A stretch of DNA of 12,001 nt. Source: Fimbriimonadaceae bacterium. GTDB taxonomy: Bacteria > Armatimonadota > Fimbriimonadia > Fimbriimonadales > Fimbriimonadaceae. The translations under genes and the position numbers were made by a program. The DNA is taken from the NCBI GenBank assembly GCA_019694835.1, contig JAIBBE010000150.1:1-12001 (forward strand), given 5' to 3'. Each line of letters starts with the position of its first letter. Position 1 is the stretch's first letter. The notes beneath the pieces are model-generated. The model did not search any database. It was not told the DNA's origin and was given only the letters and a program-made list of their open reading frames with translations. Positions 1 through 12,001 of this stretch are shown here, in pieces.

Positions 1-80
1 CGGGTTGGGTGGCGATGACCGGCGATGACTGGGATCAACCCTACGCCGTTCCGGCACCTGCCAGCTTCACCGTACTATGA
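1..80 (+). CDS. C-terminal end of an upstream phage protein (5' end outside window)
   Basis: The third frame is open from the left edge to a TGA at 78-80 and encodes 26 residues ending in ASFTVL. The stop overlaps the ATG of the next gene in an ATGA arrangement (77-80), the same coupling seen at several later junctions. That is the main reason to believe it is a real gene end. It is presumably another tail protein. The piece is too short to assign to a family. Confidence 0.5.
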   Translation, partial: GWVAMTGDDWDQPYAVPAPASFTVL

Positions 81-1612
81 CTCTGGGCATCTCGCTCGCC
101 CTCACGCTGGGGGCGGGGCTCTACGCAGACTCGGGGCCAACCGTCCTCAAGCGGCGGTTCGAGACCGCGTGGGGCAAGACGGAAGTATTCGTGGCCAATG
201 CTACACCGTGGGAACTGGCTCGGGAGCGGGCGTGGCAGCACACGGAAAGTTGGTCGATCCGATTTGCACAGAATCTCCAGTCGCCCTACGGGCTGCGGCT
301 CGAGGGTGGAAGCCGGTATCCCTACGGTGACATGCGCCAGCACCGCCGGAGCATTTTGGCGGCCTGGGGCGACGTGCATCAGACCAAGGCGCGCCACGTC
401 CTTCCGTATACCGATCTCGGTACCTGTCGGAAATCGATGCGGGCCGCGTACTGGCTGACCCGGCAGGTCTCGGCCAGACAGGTTCTCGGGTATGACGTGA
501 CCAACGTCGATCCGGTCGCCAAGCGACTCACAGCGTCCTGGTCGATCCTCGACGACGCCCGTCTGCAGGCAGTGGTTAACAGCCCGGAACTCGTCTGGCA
601 CGACCAGCGGATTCGCATCGTCGAGGCGACGCTCTCCTGTGACGAGGAGAGCCCGGTCTGGATCGCACGGGTCGAGATCGCGGCCATCACCGATTTCGCC
701 GCCATTGGCATCGGCGACACGATTACTCTTGTTCTGGGGCTGGAGACCTTTGTGCTAGTGGTCGATGGCAAGACGCTGTCGCGTGCCTCGGTCGCCGAAC
801 AACGGATGGAGCTGACAGCAGTCTCGCCCGTGGCGCTGCTCGATTCACCCTTCGCCGGCACGATCCGCTACTACGAGGCTGGTGCGGTTTCCCCGCGTGC
901 AGCGGTGGAGTTCCTGATCGGCCCGGTGGACTGGCAACTGCCCGACTGGATCATCCCGGCAGGCCGGTTGATGCTGGAAGGAACGACGCCGCTCACGGCC
1001 GCCCGCAATATCGTCGCGGCCATCGGCGGCATCGTCGAGAGCAACCCGGACGGTGGAGTAGTCTGCCGCCGCCGGCACCCAGTCAGCATCCCACAGTACG
1101 GGCAAGCCGTCGTCGCCCACAGTCTGTTCGACGCGGATGTGATGTCGGCACAGGCGCAGATCGCGCCGATGCGCGGCTACAACCGAGTGACCATCGCTAA
1201 TGAGGATGGCGGTACGGGCGCGTCCGCCGACCGGATCGAGTACGTGGCTGATGCCGATGACGCCTACCAGGGCAAGGTGCGCGCCTATCTCGCCACCACA
1301 CGCGCGGTGGTGCTGGCCCACACCGGGCATCCATCCACGGTCATCGCGACCCTCGGTGCAATCACCCGCACCGAGACTGAGACGGTCGAGTTCATTGAGG
1401 GGCAGGCGAGCACCCGATACCCGGTGACCACCATCGTGAATCTCGCCTGGCAGCACACCGGTTTGGGCGACGTGACCGCCTCGGGCCAGAGCCTCACGGC
1501 GGCCACCAGTGGTTACAGCCTGCTTCGAATCACCTACACCACCACGTCACTCGACTGGCGCGTCGCACTTCCCATCGATGAGGAAGTGCAGTTCGTGCTG
1601 GTCGATGCCTGA
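77..1612 (+). CDS. Phage tail protein, probable hub or distal-tail protein
   Basis: The product is 511 residues. The start at ATG 77 is supported by the 4-base overlap with the preceding stop; the frame has a stop at 26-28, so it cannot extend much further upstream, and no strong ribosome binding site is seen. The sequence is rich in beta-type segments and has no catalytic motif or convincing membrane segment. Residues of roughly 215-350 resemble phage tail hub proteins: a segment on entry into a 'VDGKTLSR'-like strand, then an LTAARNIVAAIGGIV-type helix followed by GGVVCRRR, as in domains that form the ring under the tail tube. Position after an upstream tail gene and before small tail-end proteins fits. 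Family assignment is from pattern memory, so it is tentative. A general minor tail protein is the alternative. Confidence 0.6.
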   Translation: MTLGISLALTLGAGLYADSGPTVLKRRFETAWGKTEVFVANATPWELARERAWQHTESWSIRFAQNLQSPYGLRLEGGSRYPYGDMRQHRRSILAAWGDVHQTKARHVLPYTDLGTCRKSMRAAYWLTRQVSARQVLGYDVTNVDPVAKRLTASWSILDDARLQAVVNSPELVWHDQRIRIVEATLSCDEESPVWIARVEIAAITDFAAIGIGDTITLVLGLETFVLVVDGKTLSRASVAEQRMELTAVSPVALLDSPFAGTIRYYEAGAVSPRAAVEFLIGPVDWQLPDWIIPAGRLMLEGTTPLTAARNIVAAIGGIVESNPDGGVVCRRRHPVSIPQYGQAVVAHSLFDADVMSAQAQIAPMRGYNRVTIANEDGGTGASADRIEYVADADDAYQGKVRAYLATTRAVVLAHTGHPSTVIATLGAITRTETETVEFIEGQASTRYPVTTIVNLAWQHTGLGDVTASGQSLTAATSGYSLLRITYTTTSLDWRVALPIDEEVQFVLVDA

Positions 1613-1621
1613 GGACACATC

Positions 1622-2128
1622 ATGGCCAATGCCACCATTCGCGTTCAATTCGGCAATCCGGACAGCTCAGGTTCGGACGGTCACCTCTCGGCCGAGGTCG
1701 ACACCCGGCCCGATGGCCTGAACGGCGGCCGCAGTTCGTTCAGCCCGGGCGAAACTGCCTACATCCTCGTCTACAAGTCCGACAACGTTAGCATCACCGA
1801 CACCATCTGCTCGGCCGGGTCGCTCTCGGCGCAAGGCAGCTCTGTGGTGACGGTGACCGAGGAACTGATGTTCGAGGATGCCGATACGGCGACGCTGGGC
1901 AAGCCGGCGCGCTCCAGCCTCTCGCAGTCGGTCTGGTATGGGCGCAGCCTCGGTGGTCTGACGCTTCAGTCCGACAAGGTTACGGTGAAGGCATCGAGTA
2001 AGGGCGTGGCGGTGGCCAAGGTCACCTACGACGCCCTGGCGCTGGTCTATGCCCTGTCGTCGCCATCCACGCTCAACGGCGAGACGGACTTTTCCATCCT
2101 GGCCCTGATCAAGGGGACGGCATCGTGA
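1622..2128 (+). CDS. Hypothetical phage structural protein, 168 residues
   Basis: I do not recognise the family. The ATG at 1622 is preceded by GAGGA at 1611-1615, 6 bases away and overlapping the previous stop codon. The protein is rich in Ser, Thr, Val and Gly with alternating hydrophobic and polar residues, which suggests a beta-sandwich. It has a single Cys and no signal peptide or membrane helix. The gene lies 9 bases after the putative hub gene, and its stop overlaps the start of the next gene in a GTGA arrangement. It therefore belongs to the same tail operon and is probably a virion-associated tail-tip or decoration protein; that role is inferred from position and composition only. 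Confidence 0.7.
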   Translation: MANATIRVQFGNPDSSGSDGHLSAEVDTRPDGLNGGRSSFSPGETAYILVYKSDNVSITDTICSAGSLSAQGSSVVTVTEELMFEDADTATLGKPARSSLSQSVWYGRSLGGLTLQSDKVTVKASSKGVAVAKVTYDALALVYALSSPSTLNGETDFSILALIKGTAS

Positions 2129-2421
2129 TCATCGAGGTCTACCGGGGCGACGGTGCGCGTGAGGGTTCGCACATCGTCGAGCCGCTGCTCGCCGACGATG
2201 CACTGATCCATCGGGGTGTGGCCGAGATGGACGCCAATGCACACGCCTTCAACCGGGTCGAGATGGCGGTGGTCTTCCAGCCGGGGATACGCCTCGGGCA
2301 GATCGTCGAGGCGACCGACCCTTCCACGGCGAGCCCCTATCGCGCCAAGGTGACGGGTATCCAGATCACGGTGTCGGAAGCGGCCATTGAAACTCAACTC
2401 TCCCTGGAGCAGCCGCGATGA
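2125..2421 (+). CDS. Small hub-like phage tail protein, 98 residues
   Basis: The start is GTG at 2125, overlapping the previous TGA by 4 bases, with a purine-rich AAGGGGA about 9 bases upstream. The C-terminal half carries the order 'pGirlGQIVEATD', then 'SPYRAKVTGIQITVS', then 'ETQLSLEQP'. That resembles the small beta-barrel end of tail hub proteins of the gp27/gp44 type, where a surface-loading strand is followed by a 'RVTGI' strand and a terminal 'TLERP' strand. It could be a separately encoded piece of the hub, acting with the 511-residue protein. This comparison is by eye. There is no catalytic motif. Confidence 0.65.
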   Translation: MIIEVYRGDGAREGSHIVEPLLADDALIHRGVAEMDANAHAFNRVEMAVVFQPGIRLGQIVEATDPSTASPYRAKVTGIQITVSEAAIETQLSLEQPR

Positions 2422-2636
2422 GCTTTGCGTTGAAGGAACTCTCCCGTCTGCTGGCCACGGATACGCCGGTGGTGGGCGCAGTGGTCGGCATCGACGGGGC
2501 GGTCGTGCGCGTGGCCACCGAGCGGGGGGCGGTCACCGCCCGGACGCTCGATGTGGTGGTCGTTGGCGACCGCGTGCAGGTCAAGAACGGCATCGCCACC
2601 AAGGCACCGGTGGCAAAGCAGGTCTTTCCCGTTTAA
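2418..2636 (+). CDS. Small beta-rich phage tail-associated protein, 72 residues
   Basis: The ATG at 2418 overlaps the preceding TGA by 4 bases, and GGAG lies about 10 bases upstream. Residues of about 18-60 form a valine-rich series of short strands (PVVGAVVGIDGAVVRVAT, then ARTLDVVVVGDRVQVKNG), consistent with a small SH3- or OB-like barrel. There is no membrane helix or catalytic site. Position directly after the hub-like protein suggests a tail-tip or spike-associated role. I cannot name a family, and the function is unknown. Confidence 0.65.
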   Translation: MSFALKELSRLLATDTPVVGAVVGIDGAVVRVATERGAVTARTLDVVVVGDRVQVKNGIATKAPVAKQVFPV

Positions 2637-2644
2637 CGACAATT

Positions 2645-2650
2645 GGAGGA
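2645..2650 (+). promoter_or_regulatory. Shine-Dalgarno site fixing the GTG start at 2657
   Basis: GGAGGA sits 6 bases before GTG 2657. The reading frame is open further upstream, to 2387, but this strong site and the stop of the preceding gene at 2636 show that translation begins at 2657. Confidence 0.75.
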
Positions 2651-2656
2651 ATCGAA

Positions 2657-2890
2657 GTGAAGCAAGCGATGACATTTCTGGAGCGGGTCAGGCCCGCCAT
2701 CGACGCCCTGCCTGATGGGGCCGACAAGGACACGCTGCTGGCCCTGGCCGAAGCACAGGACACCATCGAGCGCGGTGACGTGCATCCGAAGCAGCGGGCC
2801 CTGGCCATGCGTCGGCTGGTAGGCGGCGCTGCCGTCGTGGCCAGCAGGAAGGCAGGGCGTTCAGCCCAAGGACGCGGCAAGAAGCCGTAG
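2657..2890 (+). CDS. Hypothetical phage protein, 77 residues
   Basis: The start is GTG at 2657, chosen for the strong GGAGGA site. An in-frame ATG four codons later (2669) is a weaker alternative. The protein is mostly helical and charged, with an acidic/amphipathic N-terminal half (FLERVRPAIDALPDGADK) and a strongly basic C-terminal tail (RKAGRSAQGRGKKP). The tail hints at nucleic-acid or membrane-surface binding. No known domain is recognised. It is the last gene before a terminator, between the tail genes and the lysis cassette. Confidence 0.65.
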   Translation: MKQAMTFLERVRPAIDALPDGADKDTLLALAEAQDTIERGDVHPKQRALAMRRLVGGAAVVASRKAGRSAQGRGKKP

Positions 2891-2919
2891 CGACAAGGCA
2901 ACCCCAATTCACACCCCCG

Positions 2920-2941
2920 AACCCGCCCACGAGGCGGGTTT
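2920..2941 (+). terminator. Intrinsic terminator between tail and lysis genes
   Basis: AACCCGCC at 2920-2927 pairs perfectly with GGCGGGTT at 2933-2940 around a 5-base loop (CACGA). The 8-base GC-rich stem is followed by a short, interrupted T-rich stretch (TTCGCATTTCT). The U-tract is poor, so termination may be partial, letting some late transcription reach the lysis genes. It lies 29 bases after the stop of the 77-residue protein. Confidence 0.7.
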
Positions 2942-2962
2942 CGCATTTCTGGAGGACGAAAA

Positions 2963-3256
2963 ATGGATTCGACCCAAACCGAGCGCCGGAAGATGGTGAC
3001 CATCCCGCAGGAAGAATTCGAGGCGATGCTGGAGCGTGCCGCCGAGCGTGGAGCCCGGCATGCACTGCATGAGGTTGGACTTGATGGCGAGGACGCGGCC
3101 CATGACATCCGCGAACTACGCAATCTGCTCGACGCGTTCAACGAGGCCAAAAAAACCGCCGGCCTGACCATCGTGAAGATGCTGGTTACAGGTCTGGTGA
3201 TGGCGCTGCTGGCCGGCGCGTTCCTGAAACTCAAACTGTTCGGAGGTGGGCAATGA
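2963..3256 (+). CDS. DUF6127-like small phage membrane protein
   Basis: The product is 97 residues. ATG 2963 is preceded by GGAGGA at 2951-2956, 6 bases away. The layout is a polar N-terminus (about 1-15), a charged helical region (EEFEAMLERAAERGARHAL, then IRELRNLLDAFNEAKKTA), and one membrane segment at about residues 67-90 (GLTIVKMLVTGLVMALLAGAF), ending in a short basic/glycine tail. This resembles DUF6127 proteins, small phage proteins of unknown function found next to lysis genes. The gene overlaps the holin gene by 4 bases, so a role in lysis (holin partner or antiholin) is plausible but unproven. Confidence 0.7.
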   Translation: MDSTQTERRKMVTIPQEEFEAMLERAAERGARHALHEVGLDGEDAAHDIRELRNLLDAFNEAKKTAGLTIVKMLVTGLVMALLAGAFLKLKLFGGGQ

Positions 3257-3729
3257 TCGAGACACTGCTTGGTGGCCTCCTCGGCGGGGCATTCCGTCTC
3301 GCCCCGGAAATTCTGAAATGGATGGATCGCAATGGCGAGCGCAGCCACGAACTGGCCATGCAGGACAAGGCGCTGGAGTTCGAGAAACTGCGCGGGACGC
3401 AGCGGATGGAAGAGATCGGTGCCGCTGCCGATGCGGCATGGAATACCGGGGCAATCGAGGCGCTGAAGGAAGCCGTTGCTGCCCAGGGACAGCGATCCGG
3501 TGTGCGCTGGGCCGATGCACTGTCGGTCAGCGTGCGACCGGTGATCACCTACTGGTTCATGGCACTCTACTGCGCGGCCAAGACAGCGGCGTTTGCCGCT
3601 GCCGTGACGGCTGGTGCTGGTTGGGGCACGGCGATCCTGCACGCATGGACGGAGGCCGATCAGGCGCTGTGGGCCGGGGTGTTGAACTTCTGGTTCCTTG
3701 GGCGCGTGTTTGACCGGGTGCGGCCGTGA
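3253..3729 (+). CDS. 3TM-type phage holin
   Basis: The product is 158 residues. ATG 3253 lies in an ATGA overlap with the previous gene, and GGAGGTGGG at 3242-3250 is a strong ribosome binding site. Hydrophobic stretches are seen at about residues 3-20 (short, glycine-rich), 97-122 (VRPVITYWFMALYCAAKTAAF) and 127-150 (around FWFLGRVFDRV). Between the first and second lies a long charged helix (ELAMQDKALEFEKLRGTQRMEE). This layout, with the RPVITY and FDRVRP signatures, fits the 'holin of 3TMs' family known from gene-transfer agents and prophages. It would form the inner-membrane pores that release the lysozyme. The next gene, a lysozyme, overlaps its stop. The holin role is inferred from family and position. 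Confidence 0.75.
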   Translation: MIETLLGGLLGGAFRLAPEILKWMDRNGERSHELAMQDKALEFEKLRGTQRMEEIGAAADAAWNTGAIEALKEAVAAQGQRSGVRWADALSVSVRPVITYWFMALYCAAKTAAFAAAVTAGAGWGTAILHAWTEADQALWAGVLNFWFLGRVFDRVRP

Positions 3730-4187
3730 TTGCGGTGCCGCAGGCGGCCATCGATCTCGCCAAGCGTTTCGAAGGTTTCGAACGCAAGGCAAAGCGTGGG
3801 GTTGAAATCACCGCAATTCCCTACATCTGCCCGGCGGGTTACTGGACGATTGGCTTCGGCCACTTATGCGACCCGAAGCATCCGCCGATCACCGAAGCGG
3901 AGGCCGAGGGTTATCTGGTACGTGACCTGCAAACGGCACTGGAAGCGACTCTGCGTTATTGCCCGGTGCTGGCAACAGAGCATGAGGGGCGACTCGCAGC
4001 CATCGTCGACTTCACTTTCAATCTCGGTGCAGGACGATTGCAAACTTCTACTTTGCGGCGACGGATCAATCAGCGGGACTGGGCTGCAGCCGGACAAGAA
4101 CTGCGCCGATGGGTCTATGGCGGCGGGAAAGTGTTGCCCGGACTCGTCACACGACGAGAAACGGAAATGTTGCTTATGCGGAGTTGA
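3726..4187 (+). CDS. Phage endolysin, T4-type lysozyme (GH24)
   Basis: The 153-residue product should hydrolyse the beta-1,4 bond between N-acetylmuramic acid and N-acetylglucosamine in peptidoglycan. The start is GTG 3726, overlapping the holin stop by 4 bases. Catalytic-site features are visible: Glu16 in FEGF, then Cys35 and Thr41 in YICPAGYWTIGFGH, matching the Glu-Asp/Cys-Thr triad of this family. A second conserved block occurs at about 94-105 (AIVDFTFNLGAG), and LPGLVTRRETEMLL closes the fold. There is no signal or SAR anchor at the N-terminus, so release depends on the holin. The spacing Glu16-Cys35 is longer than the usual eight residues because of an insertion with KRGVEITA. It is the last phage gene in view. 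Confidence 0.92.
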   Translation: MIAVPQAAIDLAKRFEGFERKAKRGVEITAIPYICPAGYWTIGFGHLCDPKHPPITEAEAEGYLVRDLQTALEATLRYCPVLATEHEGRLAAIVDFTFNLGAGRLQTSTLRRRINQRDWAAAGQELRRWVYGGGKVLPGLVTRRETEMLLMRS

Positions 4188-4203
4188 GCAAGATAGCAAC
4201 TCC
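4180..4203. terminator. Possible hairpin terminator between convergent genes
   Basis: GGAGTTG at 4180-4186 pairs with CAACTCC at 4197-4203 around a 10-base loop. It overlaps the lysozyme stop codon and lies within the 27-base space between convergent lysozyme and KAP genes. Neither strand has a good U-tract after the stem, so it is a weak candidate that might act on both transcripts. Confidence 0.35.
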
Positions 4204-4214
4204 ATAAGTTTCCG

Positions 4215-5612
4215 TTACTCGCGAACCATAGCAGCCAGGTCGATCTTAGCGGCGACAGGAGCTAGGCTGACTCCCATCCGCATGCCTCCGTTAATGTGTC
4301 GCTTCATCTCCAAGAGGTCAGCAGCACGACGTCTGGTCTCTTCGGGTAGTTTTTCGTTTTCCACATCGTTACGCAGCTGATCTTCCAAACCTTTTGCACG
4401 CTCATGGTCTCGGTCTGCCGCCAGAAGATAGGCGTGTATGACAGTGCCCGGGCGACCGGTCTGGAATTCTTTACCTCCAGGCAGGGATACCAAGAACTTC
4501 ATCACCGTCTCAGCCGATGCTTCACCACTTATTACGCGCGTAAAGAGATCGGCATTATTGGATCGCAATACAATCAGTAACGCCACCAAAATGGGATCGA
4601 GGTAGTGGTTGGAAGGCGTTTGATCCATAACGACCCGCAGCCGGGTGATACATCGCTCTCGGGCTCGCAGCGAGAGTCCCACTGCATTGGCGAGTAGCGT
4701 AAAAAATTCGACGAAATTATTCCTGTCGTATGCGACTTCTGCTCCTTTTCGTTCTGCGAAAATCGGATCCAAGTCAAAACGCTTCATTAGGTTTTCCGTG
4801 TAGCGTTTAGAGTTTGCGGCAGGGATTCCGTATTCCAAATCGATGAATCGGCGAAGGTATTCCGTTGCGTTGATCGCCGCCCCATAGACAGCTGCGGTAC
4901 TGGCTTCGAGTTGCTGCTTGTCGATGGAAAGAACGAAAATAATATTCGGGATGTCGAAGAGGTGTTTGATCCGTTCCAAGAGCTCAATGGCAAAGTTCGG
5001 TCGGCACCGGTCTAGTTCGTCAATGAAGACGACGAGGTTAGACTCCTTGCCAGCCACTGGTAGCTGGGACACAGCGGCGGTCAACTCGGCTCGGAATTTT
5101 TCCAGCAACTCACTTTCACGATTGAACGCATTGACGAGGTCGCCAACCGTGTCACCGGCTAATTCTGAGGCTACTGATTCGATTTCTTCCTCAACGTCGA
5201 GCGCTCCCAGGGTCAATGCCTTGGCACCGGCAATCACAACCCGCTTTGCCACCAAGTTGGTGACCTTCTTGACGGTATTCAGACGCTCGCGGAAGGTGCT
5301 GTTCGCCTCATCGGTACCGAGGTCAACTCGATCAATCGAAGAGACCATTGCAACCAGCGGGTCGGTGACGTAGTCCACCTTCCATGCGTTGAAGTACGTG
5401 CACTGAAAGTTTTTCCCCTTGAGATCCTCCATCATCATTCGGACAAGGGTGGTTTTCCCGGTGCCCCAGGGGGAGTCGAGTGCCATCACGAACGGGCCAT
5501 TTAGGCGCTTGATTAGTCCGGAGAGAAACTCGACCAAAGGCCGTCGTTCGAGCGAGTCATATCGAAATGGGTCGCCGGCTGGCACCTCAAGTTCATCGAG
5601 TCGGTAAGTCAT
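4215..5612 (-). CDS. KAP-family P-loop NTPase
   Basis: The product is 465 residues. Walker A lies at about residues 47-55 (SPWGTGKTT, Lys53). A YFNAWKVDY segment follows at 73-81. Walker B is at 194-202 (VVFIDELDR, Asp198/Glu199) and is followed by CRPNFAIELLERIKHLF and an 'FVLSID' strand. EYLRRFIDLEY at about 251-261 is also typical of KAP proteins. These ATPases of the STAND/AAA-like class are often found in phage-defence loci and some are membrane-associated. Here only a weak hydrophobic stretch (about 121-137) is seen, not a clear membrane helix pair. The gene starts 41 bases after brxL and may share its transcript; the ribosome binding site is weak. Its base composition looks more AT-rich than the rest of the operon, hinting at separate acquisition. 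It could be a BREX accessory or an independent defence gene. Confidence 0.85.
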   Translation of the reverse strand: MTYRLDELEVPAGDPFRYDSLERRPLVEFLSGLIKRLNGPFVMALDSPWGTGKTTLVRMMMEDLKGKNFQCTYFNAWKVDYVTDPLVAMVSSIDRVDLGTDEANSTFRERLNTVKKVTNLVAKRVVIAGAKALTLGALDVEEEIESVASELAGDTVGDLVNAFNRESELLEKFRAELTAAVSQLPVAGKESNLVVFIDELDRCRPNFAIELLERIKHLFDIPNIIFVLSIDKQQLEASTAAVYGAAINATEYLRRFIDLEYGIPAANSKRYTENLMKRFDLDPIFAERKGAEVAYDRNNFVEFFTLLANAVGLSLRARERCITRLRVVMDQTPSNHYLDPILVALLIVLRSNNADLFTRVISGEASAETVMKFLVSLPGGKEFQTGRPGTVIHAYLLAADRDHERAKGLEDQLRNDVENEKLPEETRRRAADLLEMKRHINGGMRMGVSLAPVAAKIDLAAMVRE

Positions 5613-5653: not shown

Positions 5654-7747
5654 CTATGCTTTGAAAATATCCACCTTGGTCTCAAGGCATTTGCGCAGGC
5701 TCAAGTCATTAGCGCCGACCTCGAACCAGCCCCCTGGCTTCTGATAGAAATCCAGACCCCGGCCGATTTTTATCACCCAGCCGTTATCGATCCGGATTTC
5801 GCGGTCGTGCATATTGGGGTTGAGCTTCACTTCCAGCTCCACGTCGAGTTCTAGGAGACTCTGCTTTAGCTCCTCCAGTTTTTCCGCGATATCGGCGAGT
5901 TGCGTGTTGTCGTCATAGCCGGTGATCAAGCTGATCTTTTTCACCGAGGGCGTCTTCAGAAGGGTTTCACAGAAGCGGACAAAGTTCTGGATCTGGTGTT
6001 GAAGCCTGATATACGGGTCTTCGATGACGACGGCCTTCGCGCCGCGCAGATATGGGCCGAGGATCGACTCGTAGCTGTGTCCGGTATCACCATAGAGAAT
6101 GGTGAAGTGCTGTTCCTTGAGATCAGCAACGACAGCTTCAGCAACCGAGGCGCTTGGCGTGACCGGCGCAGGTACGGGCGTCGGCGCATTCTCTGCCGCG
6201 ACTGGAACTTGTGTGGCAGGGGGCACAGCAACTACCTCGGCTGGCGGTGCCTGGAGCTCATTCAGTCGCCTCCGAGCAGGTTCCTGGGTGGCCGTTGCAT
6301 CCTTCGACTCTGGGCAATAGACGACGACCTCTTCACCACTCGCCTTGAAATAGGACAAATTGATGTGCGCGAACTCGTCATCTGGTTTGCGCTTGTTCAT
6401 CTGTTCTTTCACCCGGCGTCGGCTTTCGATCGCGTAGGCAACGTATTCTTCGAACTCCTCGTCCGTGGGCGTACCGCTAGGATGCAGAATCTTCAGGAAA
6501 GCGCAGACCGTTTTCTTCACGCCTTTTTCGTCCCGCCCCTCGATGGATTTACCAAGGCGAATGCGCTTGCTGACTTCCTCGTACCGATTGGTGTGCTTGA
6601 ACTGGTAGTGGAAGGCCTCGGCCAGGTAATCGGTAATGAATCCGTAGCGGCTGGTGAGAAACTCGCTGCTATTTTTGGGCATTTCCCAGCCAGGAATGTA
6701 AGCAGCGAATCGGTCTTGGATGGCGTAGTCGAATTCCGCCGGCAACGGCAGGAACAGGTCGTGCTGAGGCGAGTTCACAACCTGCTGCACTGACTCATCA
6801 AAATTCCCGACGAAACTCAAACTTGCATCGGCAATGACCTCGGCCCCCCGCGAAAAGCGGCCGTTGGCCATGAAGTCCTTCATGATCTGGATGGTGTCCG
6901 GATCCTTGACCTTGATTCCGCCCACCTCATCGAAGGCGACGGTATCCCAATAGCCCACCAGACCCACCTTGCGGCGCGCATTGTTGTAGAACAGCGTTGA
7001 TTTGGTCGCCTGGCCGCCAGATATCAGCGTGGCGTAGGGCGAAAACTCGCTGAAGAAATACGATTTCCCGGTCCCGCGTGGTCCCAACTCGATGTAGTTG
7101 TAGTTTGGCTCGACCAAGGCCGCCAACCGCGCGATGAAGTGCATCCTCACGCGGGGCGACAGCTTGTTGGGCTCCAAACCCACTGACCGCAGAATGGCTG
7201 CAATCCACTCATCGCGCGTGAATGCCGCGCGGCCTTCGGTGTAGCGTTCAAAATCGAAGCGCGAAAGCTGAATCGGTCGCAGGTCTTCAATGTAGAACGC
7301 GTAGTCGTCATCCTCGATGTCGTTGTGCGCGAGCGTGACCTCTGCCCAAATTCCACCCTCCAACAGGCGGTCGTTGTCGCGATAGAACTTTTCATTGATC
7401 GCGATACGCTGCGAATTGAAATTCTCCAACGAAGCCCAGTGGCGCTTTTCCTTCTCGACGTAACGGACATGCACCTTGTCGATAAATCGGTGTTTTCCTT
7501 TTGTCGCCACCTTGGATTGCGCCGCATTGGCCTCGTCGGGACGAACGTAGTTCTCTTGCAGCGAGGAGAGCACCGCCTCCATGCCTGCGTCCATTTCGGC
7601 TTGATCGTTACTGGCGCAATACTTGGCCAGGAGAAACTCCAGCACGAACGTCGGGACGTTGGTGCCTTTCTTGATTCGGTGCAGCAAGTCCTTGCGCAGA
7701 ACTTTGCCGTCGAAAGTTGAGTTCAGCTTTTGGTCAAGTTCGTCCAT
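5654..7747 (-). CDS. brxL: BREX AAA+ ATPase BrxL with C-terminal MITD1-like domain
   Basis: The product is 697 residues. The N-terminal half matches the BrxL family: Walker A at 222-229 (GPRGTGKS, Lys228), the ISGGQATKSTLF segment after it, and Walker B with D273-E274 in VAFDEVGG. BrxL forms hexameric/dodecameric DNA-binding AAA+ rings needed for phage exclusion. After about residue 480 comes a Pro/Ala/Val-rich linker, then a domain at about 545-697. Its end has HDREIR (647-652), NGWVIKIGRGLD (655-666) and a terminal VDIF. Those motifs match the C-terminal phospholipase-D-like domain (MIT_C) of animal MITD1 from memory. No Lon-protease Ser/Lys motif is seen. The ATG lies 5 bases after the pglZ stop with no strong ribosome site, implying translational coupling. 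The start is supported by a typical BrxL N-terminus (KLNSTFDGKVLRKDL). Confidence 0.92.
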   Translation of the reverse strand: MDELDQKLNSTFDGKVLRKDLLHRIKKGTNVPTFVLEFLLAKYCASNDQAEMDAGMEAVLSSLQENYVRPDEANAAQSKVATKGKHRFIDKVHVRYVEKEKRHWASLENFNSQRIAINEKFYRDNDRLLEGGIWAEVTLAHNDIEDDDYAFYIEDLRPIQLSRFDFERYTEGRAAFTRDEWIAAILRSVGLEPNKLSPRVRMHFIARLAALVEPNYNYIELGPRGTGKSYFFSEFSPYATLISGGQATKSTLFYNNARRKVGLVGYWDTVAFDEVGGIKVKDPDTIQIMKDFMANGRFSRGAEVIADASLSFVGNFDESVQQVVNSPQHDLFLPLPAEFDYAIQDRFAAYIPGWEMPKNSSEFLTSRYGFITDYLAEAFHYQFKHTNRYEEVSKRIRLGKSIEGRDEKGVKKTVCAFLKILHPSGTPTDEEFEEYVAYAIESRRRVKEQMNKRKPDDEFAHINLSYFKASGEEVVVYCPESKDATATQEPARRRLNELQAPPAEVVAVPPATQVPVAAENAPTPVPAPVTPSASVAEAVVADLKEQHFTILYGDTGHSYESILGPYLRGAKAVVIEDPYIRLQHQIQNFVRFCETLLKTPSVKKISLITGYDDNTQLADIAEKLEELKQSLLELDVELEVKLNPNMHDREIRIDNGWVIKIGRGLDFYQKPGGWFEVGANDLSLRKCLETKVDIFKA

Positions 7748-7752
7748 ATTGT

Positions 7753-10281
7753 CTATTCCGTGTAGTCCGTTTCAATCGCCAGAGCGCTGTACGCGGCAAG
7801 TGTGGTCGGATTGAGTGCCTTAATCGAAAACTTGCCCCGGAACTCATCATCCATTCGTAGGGCGATTTGTTTGCGTTGGCCCGGCATCAACGTCACCGTT
7901 CGGGTTGCCGGATTTACGTCGCCACCCGGGCGCGGCTCACCCACCACGTTGCCCTTGCTGTCCTGAGCTTCCAGTAAGATTTCCACACTCGTGCCTTGCG
8001 AGAAAATATCGTCGGAAACCAGTATCACTTCGATGACCGGCAGCCGCGTAGTAATTCTTTTCGCGCCGTTCTTGTAGCTGATCTCAACCAGCACTTTGCG
8101 CACATCGGGCTGCTCAGCGGCGTCGAGACGCGCCACCAAGATCGGCACCACGGCTTCGGCCAGCGAAGCACCTCCGTGAAAATACAGATGCCCAGCGCGA
8201 TACGGAGCCATGCTGCGCGGTATCGCCACCTGCGCAAAGTCGCCGCGAATGCCGACCTTGTCAGCGCCAACCACCAGGCTATGGCCATCGCTCGTGCCAT
8301 TGCCCAACATCATTCGGTCATGCGCGGTAATCGGCCAATTGCCCTGGGGCTTGATGCATACATCGCCGGCTTCGGCCTGGGCGTTGAGGAAGAAACCGTG
8401 GTCAGTCACAATCACAGCTTCCTTGAAGCCCATGCCCCGCAACTTGTGCAGCGCCACCCGAATCAGTTTGAGCGTGCCGGGGATCAAACCCAGCGTCGTT
8501 TCCGGGTTGCTTTCCAATTGGCTGTCGATCTCAGTTGAGCGCAACACCAACAGGTCCACCGTCTCCGCAATCTTGGGCTTGCCGCGCACAAAGTCGTTGA
8601 GTGGCATCTCATCGAAGCGATCGCCGAGGCGCTTGCGCATTGCCTCCATCCGTTGGGTGACGTTGCCGACCGAAGCGCCAGCCAACTTCGGGATCATTGC
8701 GCCGTTCTCAAGCGCCAAGGTCAAATCGCCGCGTGCTCCGGGGAGGAGACTTGCCATTCCAACCGGCGTAATGGTCGGTAGCTGTGCGTAGGCAGCTTGA
8801 AGCTCAACCGGTCCGTCTTCGGACAACAACTTTTCCAGTGCCACACCCAACTCATAGCGCAGGGCGTCCACCATCAAATACGCTACCTTGCGGCCGTTTT
8901 CCTTCAGCCGGTCTGCCAACAGGCGATCAAACGCATCGGCGTTGGCCATACGTCCCGACGGTGGCCATCCGGTAGTCTCAACGTATTTCACAAATACGCC
9001 TTGCACCTTCTCTGCCAGACGACGATAGCGGTCGCGGGCCTGCTGAATAACTTCGTTCATCAGCCCATGCGGGTCAAGAAAATCGCCTACTGCCTGTTCA
9101 AACTCACGCTGTAGTCGATCTGCTTCTCGCAGACTGCCAAGATAAAAGTCCAGGAGATCGGCCTGCGAGCGCGAATGTTCTGGTAGCTGGCGCTCGAAGT
9201 CCTCGCAGGATTCCACCAGACTGAGGCCGGCACGCACCAACTCCCACTGCGCCTGGCTTTCACCCATGCCGAGCCACACCGAATTCTTGCGGCGAGACAG
9301 AATGGAACGAACTAGGTCGGTATCCCCCGCAGAAATGCCCTTGATGGCCGTGCGCAGAAATGTCCGCTCTTCGAATGGAAAGGTGTCACGCACGCCCAGG
9401 TCGTCAATGTCACCACACAGTTGCGCGAGATTCAGTTCCTTTTCAACGTTTTCGGCGCGCTCGATGTAGCTGGAACGCGTCTTGGGGTCGCTACGCAAGC
9501 GTTCGCAAACATCCTCAACGATCGGCCTGGCTTCCATCGGTGCGTGCGGCACACCCTTGAGGGTTTCCGGCAACGCCACCGGCAAGTCGAAGACGAATTC
9601 GCTGAACAGCACGTAGCGCCAAAGCTCGTCAGCCAAACTCGTCCACGTCTTGCCTCGGGTCTTGACCGTCATGGCCAGTGTTGCCCGGAGGAAGTCTCGG
9701 GCCTCTTGTACCCATCCCTCTTGCGCCTTCAGCGCCTCGGCCTGGTGCGCATTGGGCGCCAGCAATGCCGCCAAAATCTCGCGGCCCGACACCGCATCCA
9801 AGGTGGCACGCAATTGCGGCCAACTGACGCCGCCGCCAATCGCGTCGATGACTGCAAATGCAGGGCCAGTCGGGGTCTTGGAAAATACCCGGCGAATATC
9901 CGTGGCGTGATCGGGCTTGGCGCGCAAGCACAGGCTTAGGTATTCGTCACCATCGTCTTGCGGAAATACCGCGCCACACTCGGCGTAAAGCGCAAAAGGA
10001 TCGATCTGTTTTTGTTCGTCGGTCTGTGGCCGTTTGCCAGGCACATAGATCAGCACCGCTTCGGTCGGTGCTTTGGGTTGTCCGACCTCGCGCAGCGCCT
10101 GTAAGGCTAACTCACGACTTTCGATACTGCTGTCAGTCGTATCGACCACGCGCACCTTTTCGGCACCCAGGTCAAAGCACTGCTCGCGATAGCGCTTATC
10201 GGCGTCATACACCACCAGGCATCCCCACTGCTTCAGTCGTGGGCGCAAAACACTCTCGCGAATAAACTCGGCAATGCTCAT
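7753..10281 (-). CDS. pglZ: BREX phosphatase-fold protein PglZ
   Basis: The product is 842 residues, the usual size for BREX type 1 PglZ. The PglZ domain (alkaline phosphatase superfamily) is clear: a YLMVDALRYELG strand with metal-ligand Asp472, the LPTITPVGM segment with candidate nucleophile Thr503 or Thr505, and VTDHGFF with Asp627/His628. The N-terminal 450 residues are helical with a long charged stretch, and the C-terminal 100 residues form a beta-rich domain. PglZ is essential for BREX and works with the PglX methyltransferase and BrxC/BrxB. Its enzymatic activity in defence is not settled. The ATG overlaps the stop of the brxU-like gene by 4 bases and has a good Shine-Dalgarno site at 10289-10293. 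Assignment to the type 1 subfamily rests on length and neighbours. Confidence 0.93.
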   Translation of the reverse strand: MSIAEFIRESVLRPRLKQWGCLVVYDADKRYREQCFDLGAEKVRVVDTTDSSIESRELALQALREVGQPKAPTEAVLIYVPGKRPQTDEQKQIDPFALYAECGAVFPQDDGDEYLSLCLRAKPDHATDIRRVFSKTPTGPAFAVIDAIGGGVSWPQLRATLDAVSGREILAALLAPNAHQAEALKAQEGWVQEARDFLRATLAMTVKTRGKTWTSLADELWRYVLFSEFVFDLPVALPETLKGVPHAPMEARPIVEDVCERLRSDPKTRSSYIERAENVEKELNLAQLCGDIDDLGVRDTFPFEERTFLRTAIKGISAGDTDLVRSILSRRKNSVWLGMGESQAQWELVRAGLSLVESCEDFERQLPEHSRSQADLLDFYLGSLREADRLQREFEQAVGDFLDPHGLMNEVIQQARDRYRRLAEKVQGVFVKYVETTGWPPSGRMANADAFDRLLADRLKENGRKVAYLMVDALRYELGVALEKLLSEDGPVELQAAYAQLPTITPVGMASLLPGARGDLTLALENGAMIPKLAGASVGNVTQRMEAMRKRLGDRFDEMPLNDFVRGKPKIAETVDLLVLRSTEIDSQLESNPETTLGLIPGTLKLIRVALHKLRGMGFKEAVIVTDHGFFLNAQAEAGDVCIKPQGNWPITAHDRMMLGNGTSDGHSLVVGADKVGIRGDFAQVAIPRSMAPYRAGHLYFHGGASLAEAVVPILVARLDAAEQPDVRKVLVEISYKNGAKRITTRLPVIEVILVSDDIFSQGTSVEILLEAQDSKGNVVGEPRPGGDVNPATRTVTLMPGQRKQIALRMDDEFRGKFSIKALNPTTLAAYSALAIETDYTE

Positions 10282-12001
10282 GCTTCAGCCTCCGGCGCGG
10301 TTGAATCGGCCTCGGCGAGGTGCGCAGACCACAATGCTTCCAGTGTCGGACTGTTGCCAGATGTCAGCGCGTTCATTGCAGCGACCACCAGCTTCGCGCG
10401 ATCACGCAGAAACCCATTGAAATCTTCGGTCAGCTTTTTCTTGAATGATGCCTCGTCGAGATTCGCGTAATGCGCTTTCGACAACAGATCGAAAGAGATC
10501 AAGTGAGATCTCAAGCGCTCACGCACTACAGCCTCATCGGCCCATTGAACACGTTCCTGCAAGTACTCCAACGGATCCTTTCGCCCAATCATCCGATTGG
10601 TCTTCCATGTGATCAGGGCACAGTTCAACGCCAAGTAGCTCGGAATCTCGGCCTCTGAGAGCAAAGCATCCGGGAATACGTGGTGGTACTCGCGTTTCTG
10701 AATGCTGTCGAAAGTCGCCGTCTTGTGATCCGCAAAATCGATCGCACCAAGATAGGTGGTTACTGCGAGAACCGCTCGGGCTTCAATACCCGCCGCCTTC
10801 GGCCAGCCAGCCGCCATCAAGGAATCGACATCCGCCAGTGGGTAGTCGGTCCGGTTCAGTGACGGTACCGTGCTGATCTCGTCATCCGTAAAGCCGGGCT
10901 TTTTGAGCAGCGCTTTGATTGCCTTGAAATCGGCAAACGCCCGCGTCGGTGCGGCATTTTCGTAACGATCGGAAAAGAAGGCAGACCAAAGATATCGGCG
11001 CAATAGCTTCTCCGCCTTGGCCAGGAAATCACCGTTATCGGGGATCAGCTCATACGCAGCGGCGATAACGGCCAAGACCGCGTTGGTGGGCAGTCGGGTT
11101 TCGTCGAAAACTCGCTGGCCTTCAAGGAACGAAGCCATGCGCTCAAGACCACGCTCCAGTTTCGGCCAATTGGCAAGCAACTGCTTCTTGTCCATCTCGA
11201 TCATGCCGCGCGTATTCGGCAACTTCTCCTGGAGCAGCGCCGAAGTGGACAGGATGAGATCCGAAACGTTGCCATATCGGCTAGCGTTCGGACATTTGTC
11301 GATCAAGCTGGCTTCAAGCGCATGGAGCGATTGCTCCGCAACGCTTTCAACCTCAGCAACGATGATGTCGTAGAGCGACAGCGGCTTGCTGTTGGTGTTC
11401 ATGTTGATGAACACTTGCAGCGCCACGTCCTTGCTGGTGTCCGCAGGCAGCGATAGATACGGCAGGTTGAAATGTGTCACCCGCTCACGCAGCGTGGTGA
11501 TCTCCTCATTGATGCGCTTCTTTGTCTCATTGAATGCTTCTAGCTTGGCGAACGCATTGTCATCCGTGGGTAGTGGTTTCAATGGCCTCGTTGCATCGTC
11601 AAGCCAGCTATCGATCTTCTTCGAGAGATCGCCTGGCCGCAGCAGAGAGACGGGGACCATGCCGCGCTCAAGACACTTCGCCGGTTCCTCGGCCCAACGC
11701 GGCATGCGCAGTTGGTTTTTATTCGTCCAACGGGGGATGCAGCGAATTTCTACCTCCGAGCCGGATTTGCTCTCGCCTCGGTCAAACTGAGGCAAATAAA
11801 CAAAGAAGGTTTCCCATTCGTAATTGTTGTGAATCGAGCGCCAAAACGCGGTCAGTCGTTGTTGGCCATCCAGAAGATGCTGCGTCACCGTGCCCGGCGT
11901 TTCCGGGTCGGAGGTCACGATATAGCGCGATTCGAACTTCTCCGGACCTGCAACCTCAAGTGCCAAAGTCACACCGACCGGCAGGTTATTGATGATGGTG
12001 T
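10278..12001 (-). CDS. brxU: DUF262/DUF1524 GmrSD-type restriction protein, BrxU-like (5' end outside window)
   Basis: The frame is open through the right edge, so the true start is missing. The residues just inside the edge (TIINNLPVG) are typical of a DUF262 core that begins further upstream. LLDGQQRLTAF, encoded near 11845-11880, is the hallmark DUF262 motif, associated with nucleotide hydrolysis and related to the DNA-sulphur or modified-base sensing GmrS half. Near the C-terminus, EYHHVFPDALL (about 10675-10690) and NCALITWKTNRMIGRKDP fit the DUF1524 His-Me finger nuclease (GmrD half). Such proteins cleave phage DNA carrying modified cytosines. In the E. fergusonii BREX operon, BrxU lies between pglX and pglZ; here it likewise directly precedes pglZ and overlaps it by 4 bases. 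The symbol is therefore by analogy. It could be another DUF262 nuclease with a different target. Confidence 0.8.
   Translation of the reverse strand, partial: TIINNLPVGVTLALEVAGPEKFESRYIVTSDPETPGTVTQHLLDGQQRLTAFWRSIHNNYEWETFFVYLPQFDRGESKSGSEVEIRCIPRWTNKNQLRMPRWAEEPAKCLERGMVPVSLLRPGDLSKKIDSWLDDATRPLKPLPTDDNAFAKLEAFNETKKRINEEITTLRERVTHFNLPYLSLPADTSKDVALQVFINMNTNSKPLSLYDIIVAEVESVAEQSLHALEASLIDKCPNASRYGNVSDLILSTSALLQEKLPNTRGMIEMDKKQLLANWPKLERGLERMASFLEGQRVFDETRLPTNAVLAVIAAAYELIPDNGDFLAKAEKLLRRYLWSAFFSDRYENAAPTRAFADFKAIKALLKKPGFTDDEISTVPSLNRTDYPLADVDSLMAAGWPKAAGIEARAVLAVTTYLGAIDFADHKTATFDSIQKREYHHVFPDALLSEAEIPSYLALNCALITWKTNRMIGRKDPLEYLQERVQWADEAVVRERLRSHLISFDLLSKAHYANLDEASFKKKLTEDFNGFLRDRAKLVVAAMNALTSGNSPTLEALWSAHLAEADSTAPEAEA
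10289..10293 (-). promoter_or_regulatory. Shine-Dalgarno site for pglZ
   Basis: On the minus strand GGAGG lies 7 bases before the pglZ ATG (10281), inside the last codons of the brxU-like gene. It supports that start and the coupled translation of the two genes. Confidence 0.7.

Follow-up and report, generated by a model that had tools for sequence, protein, structure and literature searches.

A predicted phospholipase-D-fold MIT_C tail that replaces the Lon-like domain in a BREX BrxL protein, and its kinship with vertebrate MITD1

Introduction

How bacteriophage exclusion (BREX) systems stop phage is still unsettled, and the part played by BrxL differs between systems, according to the main text of Rakesh & Krishnan (NAR 2026, PMC12839542). 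The C-terminal domains of Lon-type BrxL join two rings tail to tail (excerpts of PMC10164562), and this Lon-like domain is described as non-catalytic and as mediating ring dimerisation (excerpts of PMC10164562; main text of PMC12839542). Another tail is already in print: an 'HKD-endoDNase' domain with an HRD motif, reported on BrxL in 1030 of 2913 Type-1 BREX taxa (main text of PMC12839542). Here we describe the brxL gene in a 12,001-nucleotide stretch of DNA from a Fimbriimonadaceae bacterium (contig JAIBBE010000150.1; hereafter the window), whose product ends in a domain of the MIT_C family (PF16565) that it shares with vertebrate MITD1.

We take the published tail and that of the window to be the same domain, the two being equated by description in that main text only. 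PF16565, under its Pfam title, is also named among BREX genes in an excerpt of PMC12715929, and database sources already label such proteins 'MIT C-terminal domain-containing protein'. The fusion itself and the MIT_C label on BREX proteins are already known, and the window holds another member. New here are eight invariant residues in the tail, a division of the tails into two groups with a link of one group to BrxE, and the placement of MITD1 as sister to that group (group A).

Results

An MIT_C tail on a BrxL core

The window's protein carries both BrxL_N (PF20442, E 7.1e-44) and the BrxL ATPase (PF13337, E 1.2e-117), which identifies it as BrxL, and the PADLOC BrxL model PDLC02508 spans it from end to end (residues 1-696). 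Beyond the ATPase, MIT_C is matched in full (positions 1-142 of 142, residues 556-696, E 1.3e-51), scoring 174.7 bits against a curated cut-off of 25. A first-pass annotation, made from the letters alone, had proposed an MITD1-like, phospholipase D (PLD)-like domain at this end and suggested the MIT_C search that now bears it out. The features it had cited, HDREIR, NGWVIKIGRGLD and a final VDIF, are all present in residues 546-697 (5654-6112), the end reading VDIFKA. The domain does lie inside that interval, but it starts about 10 residues later than proposed, after a Pro/Ala-rich linker.

A sequence search of the PDB with the tail found human MITD1 (4a5z, E 5.6e-39; 2ymb, E 4e-39), and the next PDB sequence followed at E 0.77. 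The tail, 47% identical to human MITD1, has the MITD1 fold in its predicted structure, and the other neighbours of that predicted fold are nucleases, Tdp1 and the FAM83B domain. Together, the Pfam match, the PDB sequence matches and the fold comparison exclude a chance likeness. The MIT domain (PF04212) expected of an MITD1 orthologue was not found in the whole BrxL in a Pfam scan up to E 1.

A Lon-type tail could be ruled out as well. The solved Lon-type BrxL (8emc/8emh) aligns to residues 3-468 only, that is, to the N-terminal domain and AAA+ core, and the PDB sequence search returned no alignment of either entry to the MIT_C tail. The Lon-type NCBIfam model TIGR02653 aligned only over 2-481 of 675, with a score under its cut-off. 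The replacement of the Lon-like domain claimed in the first-pass annotation is upheld by these results, and the Lon-type fold that would have spoken against it did not appear. In a full-length AlphaFold2 model that is poor overall (predicted local distance difference test, pLDDT, 51), residues 482-540 fall below pLDDT 50, and only this low-confidence linker was taken into account. As judged from its predicted fold, the tail is a PLD-fold MIT_C-family domain standing where other BrxL have the non-catalytic Lon-like domain, and it is probably joined to the AAA+ ring by a flexible linker.

Distribution of the fusion

A protein search with the tail (lengths 0.55-1.75 times that of BrxL) gave 3842 matches at E <= 0.001; in precomputed Pfam annotation, each of the 120 of these listed has both MIT_C and the BrxL ATPase. 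In three phylum samples, each centred on one genome chosen already knowing that MIT_C was present, MIT_C scored above its cut-off in 20/345, 3/251 and 5/299 genomes. These samples gave 30 such matches, of which 26 lie on a BrxL core; the other four are a Sel1-repeat protein, a weak partial match (L084) and two unfetched matches in genomes G246 and G378. Seven matches below the cut-off (20.2-22.7 bits; L085-L091) were dropped; L085 aligns elsewhere on the profile, and five of the six inspected by eye (the alignment of L087 was not inspected) resemble what we take to be ABC-transporter ATPases. Tail and core share a single frame in 78 of 80 related loci (the best 80 of 138 confirmed from a genome scan), the remaining two, L044 and L071, being shorter tail-only frames, and in 35 of 36 viral-contig loci, some of which are near-copies of one another.

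Among the prokaryotes sampled, MIT_C is mostly found on BrxL. The first-pass annotation had implied that the fusion is rare. The at least 120 relatives with the same domains found here and the 1030 of 2913 taxa in the main text of PMC12839542 contradict this, and with the phylum samples they rule out a fusion peculiar to the window locus.

In two of the loci the tail is joined to something other than a BrxL core. The Sel1-repeat protein (1065 aa; locus L083, 15113-18307, plus strand) holds MIT_C at residues 233-370 and lies beside large frames in which, by eye, we see resemblance to helicases, methylases and restriction proteins; this is MIT_C in what is likely another defence island. In L142, where PglZ was found, a frame at 2321-4231 (plus strand) joins a PglZ-like stretch, recognised by eye, to an MIT_C tail with no match to the BrxL core, which we attribute either to a deletion within the locus or to misassembly.

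Invariant residues and a degenerate HKD motif

The tails form two main groups, A (that of the window) and B, with a mean identity between them of 31%. We aligned 38 tails: 15 from group A, 16 from group B, five vertebrate MITD1, the Sel1-repeat protein and a divergent BrxL, L094. Eight residues, R581, Q585, H647, R649, W657, R663, D666 and R685 in window numbering, are invariant in all 38, including all five MITD1, in agreement with the strong conservation across kingdoms that had been asserted at first pass. Position 577 is Asp in 37 tails and Glu in one, and position 654 is Asp or Asn, with Asn in 5/5 MITD1. A wider set of 114 rows came from 115 tail-bearing frames, one row under 120 residues having been dropped (101 distinct sequences; eight loci were fetched twice). 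In this set 92 rows are more than 45% identical to the window's tail and 22, comprising group B, L094 and the Sel1 protein, less than 39%. H647 is His in 113/114 rows, R649 Arg in 114/114 and W657 Trp in 114/114, and the three exceptions in the set, one at the His, one at a Gly and one at an Arg, each fall in a separate row.

Because HxR is found in 38/38 tails and its His and Arg are nearly universal in the 114 rows, we conclude that the HKD motif persists as HxR(x)4D/N. The BrxL-HKD class in the main text of PMC12839542 likewise has an HRD motif (K to R). A profile search of the tail against the PDB returned only MITD1, a malate dehydrogenase at 0.015 that we put down to chance, and noise. 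Because this search reached no PLD nuclease, H647 is equated with the catalytic His of SauUSI and BfiI through the motif and the order of fold elements.

A candidate phosphodiesterase pocket

The first-pass annotation had offered membrane binding, phosphodiester chemistry or a partner dock as the role of the tail, and the evidence leans toward phosphodiester chemistry. Our proposal, which seems to us about evenly poised between right and wrong, is that the tail is a PLD-fold phosphodiesterase or nuclease module that is completed by dimerisation and attacks phage DNA. By analogy with the single-motif PLD enzymes SauUSI and BfiI, two tails would pair so that two HxR motifs form one pocket; in SauUSI, the PLD nuclease domains dimerise and each protomer contributes its HxK motif to the site (excerpt of PMC7913695). 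Pairing of rings tail to tail, as in Lon-type BrxL, might also complete such a pocket. Since the Lon-type C-terminal domain joins rings, a pairing PLD domain in its place would keep the rings paired while supplying a reaction site. The pocket would then attack a phosphodiester, most likely in phage DNA passing through the ring or gripped by it, and BrxL would act as a restriction effector beside PglZ.

The HxK(x)4D motif of PLD nucleases is absent, Arg standing at the Lys position in 38/38 tails, and this loss of the catalytic Lys is a standing objection to the catalysis proposed. The same substitution would suit a pseudo-enzyme, in which the tail does no more than pair rings, hold DNA or both, and cutting falls to PglZ or other proteins. 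The FAM83B domain, which shares the fold, points the same way; to our knowledge this PLD-fold domain is inactive. The domain that was replaced was itself non-catalytic and ring-dimerising (excerpts of PMC10164562; main text of PMC12839542). A purely structural role, however, leaves unexplained why eight polar and aromatic residues are invariant at roughly 31% identity between groups, and we consider it rather unlikely.

The kinship with MITD1 raises the alternative of a phospholipid-binding tail, like that of MITD1, which would hold the BrxL ring against the inner membrane, the site of phage DNA entry. However, the remaining fold neighbours are nucleases and Tdp1, and an invariant HxR pair would seem needless for membrane docking; we regard such an anchor as improbable.

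BrxE marks one of the two tail groups

For 47 of 51 group A tails we find BrxE within 12.9-21.1 kb upstream, in the same orientation. This count covers 50 of the 80 related loci, all group A, in 49 genomes picked for longer contigs, with L013 dropped and two further divergent tails excluded. Of the four tails lacking BrxE upstream, two have it on another contig and two are in genomes with none. BrxE was found in none of 21 further genomes, namely 20 with group B tails (one of which also has L094) and the Sel1 genome; as a check on this zero, the same BrxE model matched in 47/49 group A genomes. BrxE as a marker of all MIT_C-bearing BrxL is rejected, and it marks group A only. The survey of homologues proposed at first pass has shown the fusion to be widespread, with one tail group linked to BrxE and no BrxE found with the other. 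In Tepidimonas fonticaldi (L020, G916), two tandem BREX copies carry two BrxE and two MIT_C matches of equal scores, about 21.7 kb apart.

This association could mean that the tail is a dock for a BREX protein particular to the subtype, for instance BrxE or this group's PglZ. However, the invariant residues are common to MITD1 and to group B, whose genomes yielded no BrxE, and BrxE also stands beside a BrxL annotated as Lon-related on a haloarchaeal plasmid (Halomarina, L124, 2422-18016, plus strand). Because of this Halomarina pairing, BrxE is not exclusive to the MIT_C tail. A dock appears to us the least probable of these roles, slightly below a membrane anchor.

The PglZ of the window and of two relatives, L001 and L002, has the type-6 model as its best NCBIfam match, below its cut-off (170 bits for the window against 400 for BREX_PglZ_6). 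BrxE, scored in the two relatives since any brxE of the window's own operon would lie beyond the window, reaches 27.5 (L001) and 19.6 bits (L002) against a type-6 cut-off of 80, and passes the broad BrxE model. These relatives resemble BREX Type 6 in having BrxE upstream and a type-6-best PglZ, but differ in their sub-cut-off scores and in carrying BrxL. We infer that group A is a BrxE-bearing BREX subtype with BrxL, near Type 6 but outside it.

MITD1 groups with one set of BrxL tails

Mean identity is 45% between MITD1 and group A and 31.5% between MITD1 and group B. In the tree, MITD1 and group A are joined with support 100/100 (group A 96/90; MITD1 94/93). The tree holds five MITD1, all vertebrate, from the matches listed (best 120 of 954), with 157 usable columns and some long branches. 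Approximately unbiased tests reject a tree with all BrxL tails together, to the exclusion of MITD1 and the Sel1 protein (p-AU 0.0005), as well as MITD1 with group B (p-AU 0.0018) and A with B (p-AU 0.0066). The MITD1 tail therefore nests among the sampled BrxL tails, with group A as its sister, a position that is silent on the direction of transfer.

One speculative account, which we think somewhat unlikely, is that the MITD1 tail was captured from a BREX BrxL and that both keep an unrecognised pocket for a phosphodiester or phosphate ligand (HxR plus R/Q/W/R/D/R), making MITD1 a retired or active relative of a phage-restriction nuclease. In the alignment, the pocket-like residues are also kept in vertebrate MITD1. 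Transfer may also have run in the opposite direction, with BrxE-type BrxL acquiring a eukaryotic domain.

The core trees gave no branching order for group A, group B and Lon-type BrxL (A with B 64/70; A with Lon p-AU 0.485; B with Lon p-AU 0.523) and neither support nor reject a single origin of the fusion. L094 has a very divergent BrxL core on a very long branch with the same MIT_C tail, which suggests a second acquisition of the tail or its exchange between BREX types. Its locus (98-14926, plus strand) encodes an Eco57I-type methylase, DUF4007, a PglZ-domain protein (below the Pfam cut-off), BrxL-MIT_C and AIPR. It shares DUF4007 with BREX Type 4, but has a methylase, and no 3'-phosphoadenosine 5'-phosphosulfate (PAPS) reductase lies within the stretch seen, and the locus is a possible inter-type BREX hybrid. 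Type-4 BrxL is described without C-terminal extensions in the main text of PMC12839542.

Genomic context in the window

The minus-strand genes run GmrSD_N, pglZ, brxL, KAP NTPase (Table 1), with the genes upstream lying beyond the window. With pglZ directly upstream of brxL this is a BREX operon, the full form of which is seen in relatives only. A gene similar to the GmrSD_N gene directly upstream of pglZ occurs in 9/80 related loci, and the KAP gene directly downstream of brxL has a counterpart in the same place in 2/80 (search with the window's KAP protein). On the plus strand, phage genes, including an endolysin at 3726-4187 (PHROG E 2e-44) and a stretch at 3018-4126 that is 75.7% identical in DNA to Acidithiobacillus phage AcaML1, end 27 bases short of the convergent KAP gene. 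The BREX operon either borders on a prophage or is carried within one. A 42-base piece of the window had no exact match among viral contigs, and searches of phage and plasmid DNA brought up relatives only.

Table 1. Coordinates of genes and BrxL features in the window.
Feature	Position	Strand	Basis
brxL, 697 aa: BrxL_N residues 11-140, BrxL_ATPase 151-463, linker, MIT_C tail	5654..7747	-	Open reading frame
MIT_C / PLD-fold tail, residues 556-696	5660..6082	-	Pfam
Pro/Ala-rich linker, about residues 482-540	6128..6304	-	Translation; low predicted order
Degenerate HKD motif (HxRxxxxD): H647, R649, D654	5786..5809	-	38-row alignment
W657...R663-G-L-D666, invariant, after HxR motif	5750..5779	-	Alignment
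R581 and Q585, invariant (DPYIRxxHQ)	5993..6007	-	Alignment
R685, invariant, close to C-terminus	5693..5695	-	Alignment
pglZ, 842 aa, of the kind accompanying this BrxL group	7753..10281	-	Pfam PglZ E 9.8e-10; PADLOC PDLC02561 1-841
GmrSD_N (DUF262) restriction gene, in operon, open at window edge	10278..11999	-	Pfam E 2.7e-12
KAP-family P-loop NTPase	4215-5612	-	PADLOC match to PDC-S20, a candidate defence family, along almost the full length
Phage tail-type and lysis genes	77-4187	+	PHROG; DNA identity

Discussion

The main text of PMC12839542 contains no whole-word MIT, MITD1 or ESCRT (endosomal sorting complex required for transport), and the paper was absent from those that a literature search found to name both BrxL and MIT_C. 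Neither there nor in the literature searched (supplements and subscription papers lay outside the search) was a comparison of MITD1 with BREX, or a tree placement of MITD1, found. The link of one tail group to BrxE was likewise not found in that main text, which names BrxE once, for Type 6, or in our literature search. With a PLD-fold tail and an invariant candidate pocket in hand, mutants could ask whether BrxL cuts DNA in about one third of Type-1 systems. The 'membrane-binding fold' of MITD1, a human protein of cell division that acts in abscission, would in turn become, through these shared residues, a candidate enzyme or phosphate-binding site, kin to bacterial defence.

Among known systems, the BrxL-HKD-endoDNase fusion, as described in the main text of PMC12839542, matches the window in having a BrxL core with a PLD-superfamily tail in the place of the Lon-like domain. 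Lon-type BrxL (PDB 8emc; PMC10164562) has an alignable N-terminal domain and AAA+ core, whereas its C-terminal domain is a non-catalytic Lon fold. The PLD-type restriction nucleases SauUSI, BfiI and NgoAVII are all about 12% identical to the BrxL tail, and the motif of SauUSI is HxK (excerpt of PMC7913695) compared with HxR in BrxL. The C-terminal domain of human MITD1 (4a5z, 2ymb) shares its family, its fold and the eight invariant residues with the BrxL tail, but it has Asn at the position of D654 and is joined to an ESCRT-III-binding MIT domain rather than to an AAA+ ring.
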